From Bactericera cockerelli (taxonomy: Eukaryota > Arthropoda > Insecta > Hemiptera > Triozidae), in NCBI GenBank assembly GCA_024516035.1, contig CM044967.1:18698810-18762809 (forward strand): a stretch of 64,000 nucleotides of DNA, in the 5' to 3' direction. The translations under genes and the position numbers were made by a program. Of this stretch, positions 2,056 to 50,256 are shown piece after piece. Below the pieces are notes generated by a model that was not told where the DNA came from, made no database searches, and saw nothing but the letters and a program-made list of their open reading frames with translations. The first letter of the stretch is position 1. Every line of letters begins with the position of its first letter.

Positions 2056-2125
2056 TAATCAGTATAAACAGAAAAGTGAGAAGTTGTACTAGATGTACAT
2101 GAATATCAGAACAGTGAGGAATTAA
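2056..2125 (-). repeat. Fragment of hammerhead-associated repeat (family L)
   Basis: The fragment contains CAGTATAAACAGAAAAGTGA followed by AGAAGTTGTACTAGATGTAC and ATGAATATCAGAACA. This is the reverse complement of the segment lying just 3' of the ribozyme cleavage site at 38553. The ribozyme core itself is absent. Confidence 0.6.
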
Positions 2126-7990: not shown

Positions 7991-8129
7991 TTTTTGATGG
8001 ATGAGATGTGGAATTTGGCTTTTTATGTCCGGAATGATACACAAAGTGTAAGTTGAAAAGAATCTTATGAGCAAAAACTTGCAAAAAGAGTAAAGAAGTT
8101 CGTTTTATTCCAATGATTAATCAGTGCAA

Positions 8130-8175
8130 TCAGTATAAACAGAAAAGTGAGAAGTTGTACTAGATGAACATCTAG
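8130..8175 (-). repeat. Family L fragment
   Basis: CAGTATAAACAGAAAAGTGA followed by AGAAGTTGTACTAGATG. It is the same 40-base word as at 2060 and 21267, with unrelated flanks. Confidence 0.6.
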
Positions 8176-21065: not shown

Positions 21066-21264
21066 CTAAAAAGTTCAACCCCCAGAACATTTTCAACACT
21101 AATTTAAACTGAAATGACTATTCACGAACTAAACTGAAAACTGATCAGTTTTTCAACATAGATTTACCTACTTTAGCTTTATTTCAGTCAATGATTTCAG
21201 TTCTTGCTTAAACCACAACAGACCAAAGTTTTCAAATCAGAAATAATAAATACACCTAAAACAA

Positions 21265-21521
21265 ATCAGTATAAATAGAAAAGTGAGAAGTTGTACTAGA
21301 TGTACATGAATATCAGAACAGCACGAATTAAAATTTCCAATAATAATAACAACAGTCTTTAGTTGAAGGTAACCACCAGGCGAGGTTAATGCTCAAAGCT
21401 TTTCCTACCAACTAACCCTCAGAGTCTTATTATTATGAATTGAATTAAATTATGTGGTCAGAAACTCAAATTAATGAGGAAAATTCATGCACTGGGTAGG
21501 ATTTGAACCAACAGAATAAAA
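21265..21521 (-). mobile_element. Family L fragment followed by SINE family B copy
   Basis: 21265-21325 carries the 55-base L segment. 21339-21521 is a B SINE body on the minus strand (AGTCTTTAGTTGAAGGTAAC, ACCAGGCGAGGTTAATGCTC, TGCACTGGGTAGG). Its head is truncated. Confidence 0.6.
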
Positions 21522-24323: not shown

Positions 24324-24535
24324 GTGCACTGATAGTCAAGTGGTTAACGCGCTAGTCTGGTAATCCAGGTAGCGTTGGGATCCGTTGGTTCGAATCCCAC
24401 CCAGTGCACGAATTTTTCCTCATTAATTTGAGTTTGTGACCACATAATAATAAGACTCTGAGGGTTAGGTGGTAGAAAATGCTTTGAGCATTAACCTCGC
24501 CTGGTGGTTACCTTCCACTAAAGAGTATTATTATT
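24324..24535 (+). mobile_element. SINE family B, full copy
   Basis: The head is GTGCACTGATAGTCAAGTGG, then TCTGGTAATCCAGGTAGCG and GGTTCGAATCCCACCC. The body has GAGGGTTAGGTGGTAGAAAA, and the 3' end is CACTAAAGAGTATTATTATT. Further copies. Plus: 29622-29712 (3' part), 31195-31317, 43440-43570, 43915-44030, 44243-44470, 49524-49738, 50965-51178 and 63728-63905. Minus: 56604-56823 and 62640-62815. Confidence 0.8.
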
Positions 24536-38080: not shown

Positions 38081-38233
38081 TCCGACGCCCTGAATTAACT
38101 ATGTTTGAAATGTGGGAAAGCGTTCACTCCAAGCTGACGGAGCATGACGAGAGAGATGATGACGACTCGCAGCAGCAGCAGCAGCAGATGCTCTTGGCTC
38201 AGCAGCCCCACACCTCGTCGGGCTCTATCAAAG
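38081..38233 (+). CDS. Candidate coding exon with acidic and polyglutamine tract
   Basis: The 153-base segment reads RRPELTMFEMWESVHSKLTE, then an HDERDDDDS acidic run, six glutamines, and LLAQQPHTSSGSIK. It ends at a good donor (AAAG then GTAAGATC). The assumed acceptor AG at 38079-38080 has a poor pyrimidine tract, and the same frame is open upstream to 37981, so the start is uncertain. Phases (1 in, 1 out) fit the candidate exon at 21777. Codon choice is mixed, unlike the surroundings. I do not recognise the protein. It may be an intracellular, low-complexity segment of a larger protein. Confidence 0.4.
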
Positions 38234-38243
38234 GTAAGATCAG

Positions 38244-38310
38244 TCAGCACAGTTCTGATATTCATGTACATCTAGTACAACTTCTCACTTTTCTGTTTAT
38301 ACTGATCAAA
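38244..38310 (+). repeat. Family L fragment (post-cleavage half)
   Basis: Begins GTTCTGATATTCATGTACAT, the 3' strand of ribozyme stem I and beyond. It then has AACTTCTCACTTTTCTGTTT and ATACTGAT. It lies just 3' of the candidate exon donor. Confidence 0.65.
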
Positions 38311-38505
38311 GAACCGAAAATAGGACTTTTACAAAAATAAGCCCGATCGACCTTCAAGTTGCTGTATTAAAATAGTGCGTGATTGGTTGATATGCACCAT
38401 TACAAATAATAAAGGAATGAAATGTAACAATACTAGCATAAATATAGCTATAGGTTTCTGTTTATACTCATTAAAATAGAGAGGTTGGTTGAAGACATGG
38501 ATATT

Positions 38506-38566
38506 CAGAACTATTACCTGCTGATGAGAGCAAATAAGCTCGAAACAGCTGTCCAGGTATGTTCTG
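38506..38566 (+). ncRNA. Type I hammerhead self-cleaving ribozyme
   Basis: All conserved parts can be read. Stem I 5' strand is CAGAAC and TACCTG (38506-38511, 38515-38520). The core CTGATGA is at 38521-38527. Stem II is GAGC/GCTC with loop AAATAA (38528-38541), followed by GAA (38542-38544). Stem III is the palindrome ACAGCTGT (38545-38552), and the cleavage nucleotide C is at 38553. Stem I 3' strand is CAGGTA and GTTCTG (38554-38559, 38561-38566). Stem I pairs perfectly over 6 + 6 bp, with an asymmetric internal loop TAT/T that could make the tertiary contact. The loop-less palindromic stem III is like the minimal type I hammerheads of animal retroelements, which work best as dimers. Activity is inferred. 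Confidence 0.9.
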
Positions 38567-39060
38567 ATACTAATGTACATCTAGTACAACTTCTCACTTT
38601 TCTGTTTATACTGATTTATACTGACAGTTTTTGTAAAACAAAAAAGTGAGAAGTTCTGTAAGATGTACCAGTCAGCAATTTTTTTTATATGTTCCATACA
38701 AAACAAAAAAGTGAGAATTTCTGTAAGATGTAAAAGTCAGCAATTTTTTTTATATGTTGCATAGAAAAAAAAGTGAGAAGTTCTGTAAGATGTACCAGTC
38801 AGCAATTTTTTTTATATGTTCCATACAAAACAAAAAAGTGAGAAGTTCTGTAAGATGTACCAGTCAGCAATTTTTTTTATATGTTCCATACAAAACAAAA
38901 AAGTGAGAAGTTCTGTAAGATGTACCAGTCAGCAATTTTTTTTATATGTTCCATACAAAACAAAAAAGTGAGAAGTTCTGTAAGATGTACCAGTCAGCAA
39001 TTTTTTTTTATATGTTGCATACAAAAAAAAGTGAGAAAACTGTAGGATGTATCAGTCAGC
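38567..39060 (+). repeat. Family L segment and a 62-bp tandem array
   Basis: 38567-38615 is the L segment that follows the ribozyme. From 38635 to 39050 a unit of about 60-63 bp is repeated seven times. It holds AAAAAAGTGAGAAGTTCTGT, AAGATGTACCAGTCAGCAAT and a poly-T, TATATGTTCCATAC stretch. Each unit carries the L core word in reverse sense. Unit identity is very high. Confidence 0.85.
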
Positions 39061-40560
39061 ACATTTTTTTATGAAACAGTAGAATGAGAAGTTCTGAGAG
39101 ATGACGTACCTCTTATGTTTTATAAAACAAACAAATGTGAAGTTTTATGAGATGCACCCGTCAGCACACTTCTTATATTCGGACGATATAAAAATTCATA
39201 ACCTGATGAAGTTTATTACATAATTGATACCTATTTTACTTTGAATAAAAGTCAAAGTTCGAATAATGAAAAAAATACACTCGGTATAAACAGAAAAGTG
39301 AGAAGTTCTGTTAGATTTACCAGTATATAAGCACAGTTTTTCAACGAACCCCCAATTGCAAAGTTACCAATGGAGAAATTTAATAGTCCATTTAATTTGA
39401 ATTTTCTTTCGAAGTTCGTTGCTCTGACCAAATCTATCAATTTTTTCAATAATCAGCAATTTAAATGGTAAACTTAACTTCATTTCCATAGTAGGTGCCT
39501 CCATGAGATCTTGAACTTACTAAGTGAAGAGCCATTTGATTTTGTATATTTTTTCCCATTACGTTTTCGAGTTCATTCCTCAATTAGCAACTATGCAACT
39601 GGGGTAAAGTATAAAAAGAAAAGTGAGAAGTTCATCACAGATTAGTGTTTTGATCTTCAACCGGTCCTTATTATTATAGTAGCAAGTCAGTAAAAAACAT
39701 TAGTGTGTTTTCATCAGTGATAACTATGATCAGTCAGCAAAATATTATATGAAAGTATTTTAATCTGTAATCAGTTAATTTGTATGAAAATATTCTGATC
39801 AGTATCCAGAATATCCAGTATGTAAGAATACGAAATTTAAGTGCTGACTAGAAAGTGAATCAGCAGAAATGTCAGGTGTATGTTAAATTTACTGATGAAG
39901 AATTATCAACAATACTCGTTATAAATGAAACTATATTTCTTTTTTAATCACTTGCACTTCATATTTCACAAGTTGGTTTTGTCTGGGTGGTGATTTGTTT
40001 ACAAACTTGGGATGGAAACGTTGCAAACGTTGACAGAATATATTATTATTATTATTATTGGATACTTTTTCGAAGGACAAATACAAACAAAAATAAATTT
40101 CCAATATCCTAATTTTTTTTCATGTAAATTAAATTTATCTGTACATGTATTTTGTTTTGTAATTTTGCAAAAATAAAACTACCACTCTAATGCAATTGTT
40201 ACAAATATAAGAATAATGTACCATGTTGAGCATGAGGGAAATAAAAGAACCAAAATATACTCATTACATCAATATGAAAGTACATATCTCCAATATGTAC
40301 AGTACAAAAACCTGAATTTAAGAGAAAATCTTTTGTCTGATCTTCAATATAAGAGAAACTGAATTTAGAAGAAACTTCAAAGAGAAATAATTATTGGTAC
40401 TTTGTATTCTCATATATCCAAGTTTGACTCTATTGACAACCTACCCAACTAAAAAAGGAAGTTAAGATTCCTAATATTTGTATATGAACTTGGTTGGGTG
40501 GAAGAGCTCAAATTATTGAGAATCCTGCCAATAAATTTAAATGAATTTACAAAATACAAA
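39061..40560. other. AT-rich DNA with scattered L words
   Basis: L core words at 39289 and 39617, and degenerate ones at 39085 and 39135. A pogo-like fragment (CCTGAATTTAAGAGAAAATC) lies at 40310-40440, and a G-start word (GGTTGGGTGGAAGAG) at 40492-40506. No gene is seen. Confidence 0.4.
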
Positions 40561-40564
40561 AAAA

Positions 40565-41045
40565 TAAATGAATTCAGTAAAAAAAAGTGAGAAGTTCTGT
40601 TTAGATGTCGTACATAGAAAATTAGTAAAATACAAAAGACATTGTTTTCTTTTGAATAGCTTTACTCGAGAAAATTTAGAGAACCATGATATAGAGAATC
40701 CTGCGATGAAAGCCATAAAAATTAAAAGAATTTACAAAATACGAGCAGTTTCAATGAAAACAGAAAAGTGAGAAGTTCTGTTTAGATGTCGTACATAGAA
40801 AATTACTAAAATACCAAAGACATTGTTTTCCTTTGAATAGCTGTACTCCAGAAAATTTAGAGAATCCTGCGATTAAAGCCTTAAAAAATTAAATGACTTA
40901 ACAAAATACGAGCAGTTTCAGTAAAAACAGAAAAGTGAGAAGTTCTGTTTAGATGTCGTACATAGAAAACGAGTAAAACACAAAAGTCATTGTTTTCCTC
41001 TGAAAAGCTTTACTCCAGAAAATTTAGAGAACCATGTCCATTGAG
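40565..41045. repeat. Tandem repeat, three units of about 170-185 bp, with L core word
   Basis: Each unit has CAGAAAAGTGAGAAGTTCTG, TTTAGATGTCGTACATAGAA, GACATTGTTTTC and GAGAAAATTTAGAGAACC. The last unit ends near 41040. The 67-codon frame 40568-40771 is inside the array and is not a gene. Confidence 0.8.
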
Positions 41046-46500: not shown

Positions 46501-47054
46501 TATATTTATCTAATATTATATAAAGGCTAATACTTCCGACAGGGCAATCAGTATAAACGGAAATACATCTGTATTGATAGCATTGATATTATTATTTAAC
46601 TCCTTATATAAAGAGTCTTGATAGTGTACATATTCTGTTATGTCTCAGTGTAAAGTAGAAACTTTAGGTACCTTTGTAGAAACTGTGACTTGGAGAAACG
46701 ACTCTGTAGTATGTCTAGTTACTGTAACTGGTAACTGTACAGAGAGGTAGGCTGCTGTAACTGCAAATAAAACACATTATAAAGCTCTAACGGGGCATCT
46801 GACAGCAATAGTTATTATTTACACATTATAATTAAATAATTAAGAGGTAGCCTTATTACAATGCGAAGATATAATGTTTCAGTATAAACAGATTTTTATA
46901 GTATAAACAGAAAGGTGAGAAGTTGTACTTGGAAAATTATTCCGTATTTTATTAACTCATTATAATTAAATAATAATTGAAAGGTAGTCTTACAATGCGA
47001 AGATATAATGTTTCAGTATAAACAGAAAAGTGAGAAGTTCAATATAAACAGAAT
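46501..47054. other. AT-rich DNA with repeated L segments
   Basis: L core words are at 46903 and 47022, each preceded by TTTCAGTATAAACAGA and by GAAGATATAATG. A unit of about 110 bp seems duplicated at 46850-46920 and 46960-47040. No gene. Confidence 0.4.
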
Positions 47055-47240
47055 CAGTATAAACAGAAAAGTGAGAAGTTGTACTAGATGTACATGAATA
47101 TCAGAACATACCAGATAGCTGTTTCGAGCTTATTTGCTCTCATCAGCAGGTAATAGTTCTGAGTATCCATGCCATCAACTAACCTCGCTATTTTAATCAG
47201 TATAAACAGAAAAGTGAGAAGTTGTATTAGATGTTGTAGA
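47055..47240 (-). repeat. Retrozyme-like dimeric segment with degenerate hammerhead
   Basis: CAGTATAAACAGAAAAGTGA recurs at 47055 and 47198, so one whole 143-bp monomer is bounded by a second partial one. The ribozyme (47161-47102, minus) keeps CTGATGA, GAGC/GCTC and GAAA. Stem III reads ACAGCTAT, and one base is lost at the start of the stem I 3' strand, so it is probably weak or inactive. Confidence 0.75.
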
Positions 47241-49523: not shown

Positions 49524-49738
49524 CGTGCACTGGTAGTCAAGTGGTTATCGCGCTAGTCTGGTAATCCAGGTAGCGTAGGGATCCGTGGGTTCGAATCCCA
49601 TCCAGTGCATGAATTTTTCCTCATTAATTTGAGTATGTGACAACGTAATAATATTACTCCGAGTGTTAGGTGGTAGAAAATGCTTTGAGCATTCACCTCG
49701 CCTGGTGGTTATCTTTCACTGAAGAGTGTTATTATTAT
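49524..49738 (+). mobile_element. SINE family B, full copy
   Basis: The head starts GTGCACTGGTAGTCAAGTGG. It has an intact B box GGTTCGAATCCCATCC and ends GAAGAGTGTTATTATTATAA. It is one of the best preserved B copies. Confidence 0.8.
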
Positions 49739-50050: not shown

Positions 50051-50053
50051 TAT

Positions 50054-50256
50054 CAGTATAAACAGAAAAGTGAGAAGTTCTATTTCACATGAATATCAGA
50101 ACATCCCTGGAGAGCTGTTTCGAGCTTATTCGCTCTCATCAGCAGGCAGTAGTTCTGAATATCCATGCCATCAACCTCTGCATGCCAGTATAAACAGAGA
50201 AGTGAGAAGTTGTATTAGATCTACACGAATATCAGAACATACTGGACAGCTGACAG
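50054..50256 (-). repeat. Second retrozyme-like dimeric segment
   Basis: CAGTATAAACAGA recurs at 50054 and 50186, a 132-bp period. The hammerhead on the minus strand (50157-50098) keeps CTGATGA, GAGC/GCTC with loop GAATAA, and GAAA. Stem III reads ACAGCTCTC and stem I is TGCCTG against CAGGGA. A second, 5'-lacking ribozyme end (CAGCTGTCCAGTATGTTCTG on the minus strand) is at about 50236-50255. Confidence 0.75.

Follow-up and report, generated by a model that had tools for sequence, protein, structure and literature searches.

Insertion anatomy of a 144-nt repeat bearing a type I hammerhead core in Bactericera cockerelli

Introduction

How does a small repeat with a hammerhead ribozyme enter new places in an animal genome? 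The question is raised by a stretch of 64,000 nucleotides of Bactericera cockerelli contig CM044967.1, here called the window, in which an initial annotation had placed a type I hammerhead ribozyme within a dispersed repeat. Animal non-LTR retrozymes are described in passages of two publications (Cervera and de la Pena 2020, PMC7229834; PMC7761336) with units of 150-450 bp, a G+C content below 50% and target-site duplications that, when present, are longer than 4 bp. Regarding the return of their RNA into DNA, passages of one of these, a review, say that the partner is unreadable from the sequence and that such repeats have no conserved motif pointing to it (PMC7761336).

The kind of element is already known, and the added value of the present family is its readable insertion anatomy, of which no description was found in the titles and abstracts searched. 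From the two ends of its many copies a possible route of such repeats into new genome places can be proposed. With a common start point, re-iterations in the tail and 5' ends limited by the ribozyme cut, the family makes the question testable in one genome, namely if the template is linear or circular, which enzyme copies it and if cleavage is needed for mobility.

Results

A complete type I hammerhead core was confirmed on the plus strand of the window (Table 1). The CTGATGA core (38521-38527) is followed by stem II (GAGC, 38528-38531, and GCTC, 38538-38541, with the loop AAATAA), by GAA (38542-38544) and by the stem III stretch ACAGCTGT (38545-38552), which starts with A, ends with T and is a perfect 8-nt palindrome. 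C17 corresponds to position 38553, directly 5' of the predicted cut. Stem I is composed of an inner helix of 6 bp (TACCTG, 38515-38520, with CAGGTA, 38554-38559) and an outer helix of 6 bp (CAGAAC, 38506-38511, with GTTCTG, 38561-38566), separated by a 3x1 internal loop (TAT, 38512-38514, opposite T, 38560). The ordered features of a type I hammerhead (CUGAUGA, stem II, GAA, A-U closure of stem III, H17 and an open stem I) are all present, and each invariant position as well as the asymmetric loop in stem I was found where the initial annotation had placed it. In the monomer stem III is very weak, with 2-3 bp at best.

Chance assembly of these parts had been considered very unlikely, and two controls agree with this. 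A strict hammerhead descriptor gave three matches in 264 kb (the window and 200 kb downstream), every one of them in the repeat family described below, and none in 20 first-order Markov shuffles, while the fold of the hammerhead RNA had a z-score of -3.94 that none of 200 shuffles equalled. The covariance-model hit that had been proposed as a check was obtained in part: the best Rfam hammerhead, Hammerhead_HH9 (RF02275), matched with 34.7 bits at an E-value of 4.2e-7 (501 bases searched), yet its gathering score of 52 was not reached. Neither the window nor any of 20 loci, taken from a set of 108, gave a hammerhead family at gathering score; in locus L043 Hammerhead_HH9 scored 34.2 bits, again below the cut-off. 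HH9 is a conserved single, non-repeat motif of vertebrates, whereas the core found here lies in a repeat. Rfam lines for mir-3914 (43.7 bits, cut-off 97, both strands) were disregarded because they originate in palindromic flanking sequence.

An exact 24-mer of the core was found 2,362 times in the 565-Mb genome (reversed-pattern control: 0) and three times in the window, which upholds the annotated dispersed repeat. The spacing of 144 bp between copies defines a unit of 144 nt with a G+C content of 36.1%. Most sampled copies are single dispersed insertions; tandem pairs at 144 bp occur in four of 96 loci (100 places listed on contig C1), and at 238 places genome-wide a core is preceded, one unit before it, by part of an upstream ribozyme. 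One copy (locus L066, 5154-5278) jumps from unit position 30 straight to 86 and has lost the ribozyme domain. The consensus unit is open throughout one plus-strand frame from unit position 2 (5.8% by chance in a first-order model), with an ATG at unit position 53, inside CTGATGA. In the Anolis element PAc an ATG likewise lies inside CTGATGA (PMC11167929). Since any CTGATGA holds an ATG, this open frame is a lead only.

The type I core, the small size of the unit and its 36% G+C, the tandem pairs and some excess of short duplications fit a copy of an animal non-LTR retrozyme, a kind of element that the initial annotation had named beside Penelope-like elements. The repeat resembles these elements, as far as they are described in passages of PMC7229834 and PMC7761336, also in its weak stem III and its thousands of copies. 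It differs from the same descriptions in its unit, which at 144 nt is slightly under the published range, and in that the majority of the copies sampled lie dispersed, lack part of their 5' side and share one usual 3' end. Plant LTR retrozymes (PMC4918200), as portrayed in parts of PMC7761336, carry type III hammerheads in LTRs, together with a PBS and a PPT; like the present repeat they are non-autonomous and bear a hammerhead, whereas the hammerhead of the 144-nt unit is of type I.

On its 5' side the insert has an exon-like open stretch of the same strand, followed by a donor-like AAAG/GTAAGA near 38233, and the short insert at 38252-38306 sits between this stretch and the larger one. Judged from this arrangement, the larger insert would be intronic. 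In the open frames of the window, inspected by eye, no reverse transcriptase and no autonomous element at the locus was seen.

Table 1. Positions of the repeat, its parts and its further copies in the window
Feature	Position	Strand	Basis
Whole insert, 161 nt (one full unit preceded by 17 nt of another; first base at unit position 128)	38455..38615	+	
One full 144-nt unit, TAAAATAG...TATACTGAT	38472..38615	+	Alignment of copies
5' half of predicted 12-bp stem closing the unit-junction loop (unit 3-14)	38474..38485	+	Folding
Type I hammerhead ribozyme	38506..38566	+	Sequence, HH9 match, fold, descriptor
Predicted cleavage site GTC/CAGG (unit position 82/83)	38553..38554	+	Sequence and unit alignment
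3' half of predicted 12-bp stem (unit 125-136)	38596..38607	+	Folding
Usual 3' end ACTGAT, 62 nt 3' of cut; proposed internal start of reverse transcription	38610..38615	+	
Re-iterated 3' tail TTATACTGA directly after ACTGAT	38616..38624	+	Sequence
Second core-bearing copy, with damaged stem III (ACAGCTAT)	47052..47234	-	
Third copy with core, diverged; stem III damaged (ACAGCTCT)	50052..50252	-	
Short ribozyme-less insert (unit 90-144), beginning 7 nt 3' of cut site	38252..38306	+	
Short ribozyme-less insert (unit 89-144 and 2 further nt)	2056..2113	-	
Short ribozyme-less insert (unit 89-144 and 1 further nt)	21264..21320	-	
Short ribozyme-less insert (unit 102-144 and 1 further nt)	8128..8171	-	

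Alignment of copies selected by their ribozyme revealed a variable 5' end and a 3' end that mostly coincides with ACTGAT or misses it by only a few bases; five copies (L005, L014, L022, L023 and L048) end elsewhere or are damaged. This conserved end is at variance with the statement, in a passage of the review cited above, that no conserved motif points to a partner (PMC7761336). The retrozyme tail has the form ACTTCTCACTTTTCTGTTT...ACTGAT, and an exact 28-mer ending at ACTGAT was matched 2,828 times in the genome (reversed control: 0). Behind the 3' end, short re-iterations (ACTGAT, TATACTGA, TTCTGTTTATACTGA) were present in 65 of 102 inserts, and some related tails finish in repeated GACT. 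Exact unit junctions were also found: 45 tails continue into unit position 1, and in no case does the cut end appear in the 30 nt after a tail (duplicates included in both counts). Since the shared end falls inside a repeat that continues in tandem copies, it is supported that the inserts were made by an internally starting enzyme.

Target-site duplications were compared with shuffled flanks in the same 102 inserts. The mean best match was 2.93, compared to 2.14 in shuffled flanks, and exceeded all 300 shuffles. Duplications of at least 5 bp were present in 19 inserts (8.8 expected; maximum of the 300 shuffles 17), whereas the counts for at least 6 bp (8 inserts, 3.0 expected, shuffle maximum 9) and at least 7 bp (4 inserts, 0.9 expected, shuffle maximum 4) lay within the shuffles.

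Sampling independent of the ribozyme yielded 72 BLAST fragments in 264 kb, pieces of satellite arrays included, many of which are short pieces of the 3' end. A 19-nt tail core with at most two changes was found at 82 places of the same 264 kb, many of them inside two local satellite arrays; extrapolated from this one region, if it is typical, tail pieces would number about 10^5 genome-wide. The insert is adjoined by a 65-bp tandem array of 6.8 copies (38635-39070) that includes the reverse complement of the tail core, and the tail also occurs inside arrays at 40692-41031 (167-bp unit) and in locus L063 at about 60-950 (unit of about 27 bp).

The 5' ends were analyzed in all exact-tail loci listed for the first 18.7 Mb of contig C1 (73 loci, of which 67 were kept after removal of one complex locus and five duplicates). 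Insert lengths were at most 62 nt in 22 loci, 63-143 nt in 13, 144-210 nt in 31 and 211-218 nt in one; none was longer. Counted from the 3' end backwards round the unit, the cut is met at 62 nt and again at 206 nt; 45 of 67 inserts pass it once and only one of 32 a second time (Fisher p 2.4e-10). Two further duplicates are among the 67 (L082 of L081, L107 of L106), without which the proportions are 44/65 and 1/31 (p 4.2e-10), and a broken or inner tail served as the anchor in at least three of the short inserts (L048, L073, L106); omission of the two duplicates and of these three loci gives 44/62 and 1/31.

Starts exactly at the first base past the cut are few, being found in L026 (206 nt) and L115 (62 nt), and 5' ends are scattered over the 60 nt 3' of the cut. 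Among the nine unique loci sampled that reach 201 nt by exact pattern, six stop at unit 75-87 and three (L008, L010, L012) continue, L010 to a stop at position 69 one unit further. Genome-wide pattern counts, in which tandem arrays are counted several times, fall from 428 places reaching 201 nt to 238 reaching 217 nt; this is a fall of 44%, or of 50% once corrected for exact retention of the 10-mers (50 and 56 of 69 copies). At these 238 places tandems extend beyond 217 nt. A second 5' stop, at unit 74-75, was seen in L087, L101, L125 and the third window copy (at 50252); it lies 8-9 nt beyond the predicted cut and coincides with the start of the palindrome ACAGCTGT.

Divergence from the consensus was measured in 81 inserts picked without regard to the ribozyme. 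The figures for CTGATGA (2.8%) and stem II (1.8%) were low compared to 7.0% in unit 1-30; the tail (unit 117-136) diverged by 1.5%, a figure lowered by the selection on the tail. GAA (4.1%), stem III (5.8%) and the 3' side of stem I (10.3%) were not specially conserved, and the cut base was altered or absent in 5 of 27 inserts. Constraint on the whole ribozyme is thus not clear-cut.

Folded as a circle, as a dimer and as a cleaved monomer, the consensus unit is predicted to form a rod with the ribozyme at one tip. At the opposite tip a predicted 12-bp stem closes a 10-nt loop, AUACUGAU/UA, which contains the unit junction ACTGAT/TA. The real tandem junction in L011 gave the same minimum-energy rod (z -4.27; one of 200 shuffles as good), and its centroid fold departs from the rod in the stem. 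The usual insert end thus falls in a predicted loop that is complete only with RNA past the unit end, as in a multimer or a circle.

Elsewhere in the genome a family with GIY-YIG was found at 30 places, with open frames of up to 837-838 aa and some copies head to tail. Judging from the GIY-YIG, the frame length and the head-to-tail copies, the family is probably Penelope-like. Pfam returned no family for 152 and 46 aa from the two protein ends of this element. A hammerhead-like motif (CTGACGA ... GAA ATGGCCAT C, with ATGGCCAT as palindromic stem III) precedes the ends of two of its copies, which lie at different points, 128 and 271 nt 3' of the motif. As its stem II is bulged and Rfam gave no match with E up to 1, this motif is not claimed as a hammerhead. 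The retrozyme tail was absent from a pseudo-LTR fragment (L129, G000:C7:37210300-37211990) and two 3' ends of one such family, and the probable Penelope-like fragment of this genome has no sequence match to the retrozyme.

Partners were also sought through shared upstream sequence of 196 tails (duplicates included); among the best 80 of 174 flush or near-flush pairs no obvious longer partner emerged, and these 80 were mostly segmental duplicates, satellites and other dispersed repeats off the tail. In one of the pairs, the upstream flanks of L041 and of the 21264-21320 copy are 68% alike over 237 nt right up to the tail, perhaps owing to AT-rich sequence or a common target repeat.

Discussion

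The anatomy of the inserts can be arranged into a copying cycle. Tandem copies would be transcribed, and the upstream hammerhead would cut the RNA so that its 5' end lies at unit 83, a step suggested by where the inserts stop. The RNA is predicted to fold into the rod, with the ribozyme and the 10-nt junction loop ACTGAT/TA at opposite tips. A reverse transcriptase, most likely that of a Penelope-like element, would nick the DNA and start inside the RNA in this loop, and such a start is proposed as the reason for the common 3' end. The end and its frequent re-iterations are observed; slippage would account for the latter. Copying would cease before or at the ribozyme-made 5' end, a limit that is seen statistically, giving at most about 62 nt with all hammerheads cut and about 206 nt with one uncut. 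Joining would finally produce short or no target-site duplications, in line with their slight excess. That the insert is a non-LTR retrozyme copy made by internally started reverse transcription on ribozyme-ended RNA, with every step of the cycle as proposed, appears to us evenly balanced. Against it stand the probable partner fragment without the tail, the stops at unit 74-75, the few starts at the cut, the tandems beyond 217 nt, the ribozyme parts that are not specially conserved, the very weak monomer stem III and the duplications of 6 and 7 bp that do not exceed the shuffles.

The Penelope-like enzyme is suggested by the start geometry, which is that of PAc, and by the GIY-YIG family in this genome. 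The reverse transcriptase of PAc starts inside its RNA in vitro, within a stem loop (frame positions +111 to +118), and the PAc hammerhead cuts at +26, i.e. the start lies 85-92 nt 3' of the cut (PMC11167929). In both systems a hammerhead is followed by an internal start within about 60-90 nt (in the retrozyme the proposed start lies at 62 nt), and both have partial tandems. PAc reverse transcriptase prefers ATT sites (PMC11167929). In contrast to PAc and other Penelope-like elements, the retrozyme unit shows no evident protein domain and, with 144 nt, does not encode a reverse transcriptase with a GIY-YIG endonuclease; a Penelope-like element may instead supply the enzyme that copies it. Mutants of the PAc hammerhead inserted unchanged in vitro (PMC11167929), which argues against cleavage being needed in PAc.

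In its most specific form the proposal holds that linear RNA with a hammerhead-made 5' end, and not a circle, is the main template, that a Penelope-like enzyme starts on it at the fixed loop and that the inserts record cleavage in vivo. A template 5' end at the cut would explain both length limits, and the number of uncut hammerheads would set the insert class (about 62, 206 or 350 nt). We hold this combination as tentative; the linear template taken alone would rank between tentative and evenly balanced.

The enzyme could also be that of a LINE, for example CR1- or RTE-like with a short-repeat tail, in place of a Penelope-like element, which we consider doubtful. SINEs copied by LINEs usually have a shared, re-iterated 3' end, variable 5' truncation and short duplications, so these traits suit a LINE as well, and the related tails that end in repeated GACT point in the same direction. 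Initiation within a longer RNA, downstream of a hammerhead, is, however, the geometry shown for a Penelope-like element (PMC11167929), and argues weakly against a LINE.

The published model, in which cleavage and ligation make a unit-length circular RNA that is reverse-transcribed round for more than one unit, differs in the template and seems rather unlikely here. Retrozyme circles have been shown in coral, mussel and axolotl, according to passages of PMC7229834, and a circle would readily explain the smooth crossing of the unit junction and the 45 tails that run exactly into position 1. It offers no reason, however, why the second pass should stop at the cut, given that 44 of 65 inserts cross it on the first pass, unless by coincidence strand displacement fails after about 60 nt.

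That the ribozyme is dead and the stop reflects a transcription start near unit 83 in source copies, where a promoter would mimic the same limit, is improbable: the weak monomer stem III, its damage in two of the three window copies and the 5 of 27 inserts with an altered or absent cut base are in favor of it, but divergence in CTGATGA and stem II is below that in unit 1-30, and the start site would have to coincide with the predicted cut.

Other features of the window and contig

An 88-bp tandem array of about 13 copies (613-1790) overlaps an exon-like stretch on the minus strand that matches aromatic L-amino-acid decarboxylase. The only Rfam matches of the window at gathering score are two tRNA-like ones, at 49527-49609 (42.4 bits) and 24326-24408 (29.6 bits). 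Telomeres of TTAGG are usual in arthropods; runs of five TTAGG units gave 1,711 overlapping matches and, among the matches listed, are clustered at a distance of about 0.43 Mb from one end of contig C1, its terminus.
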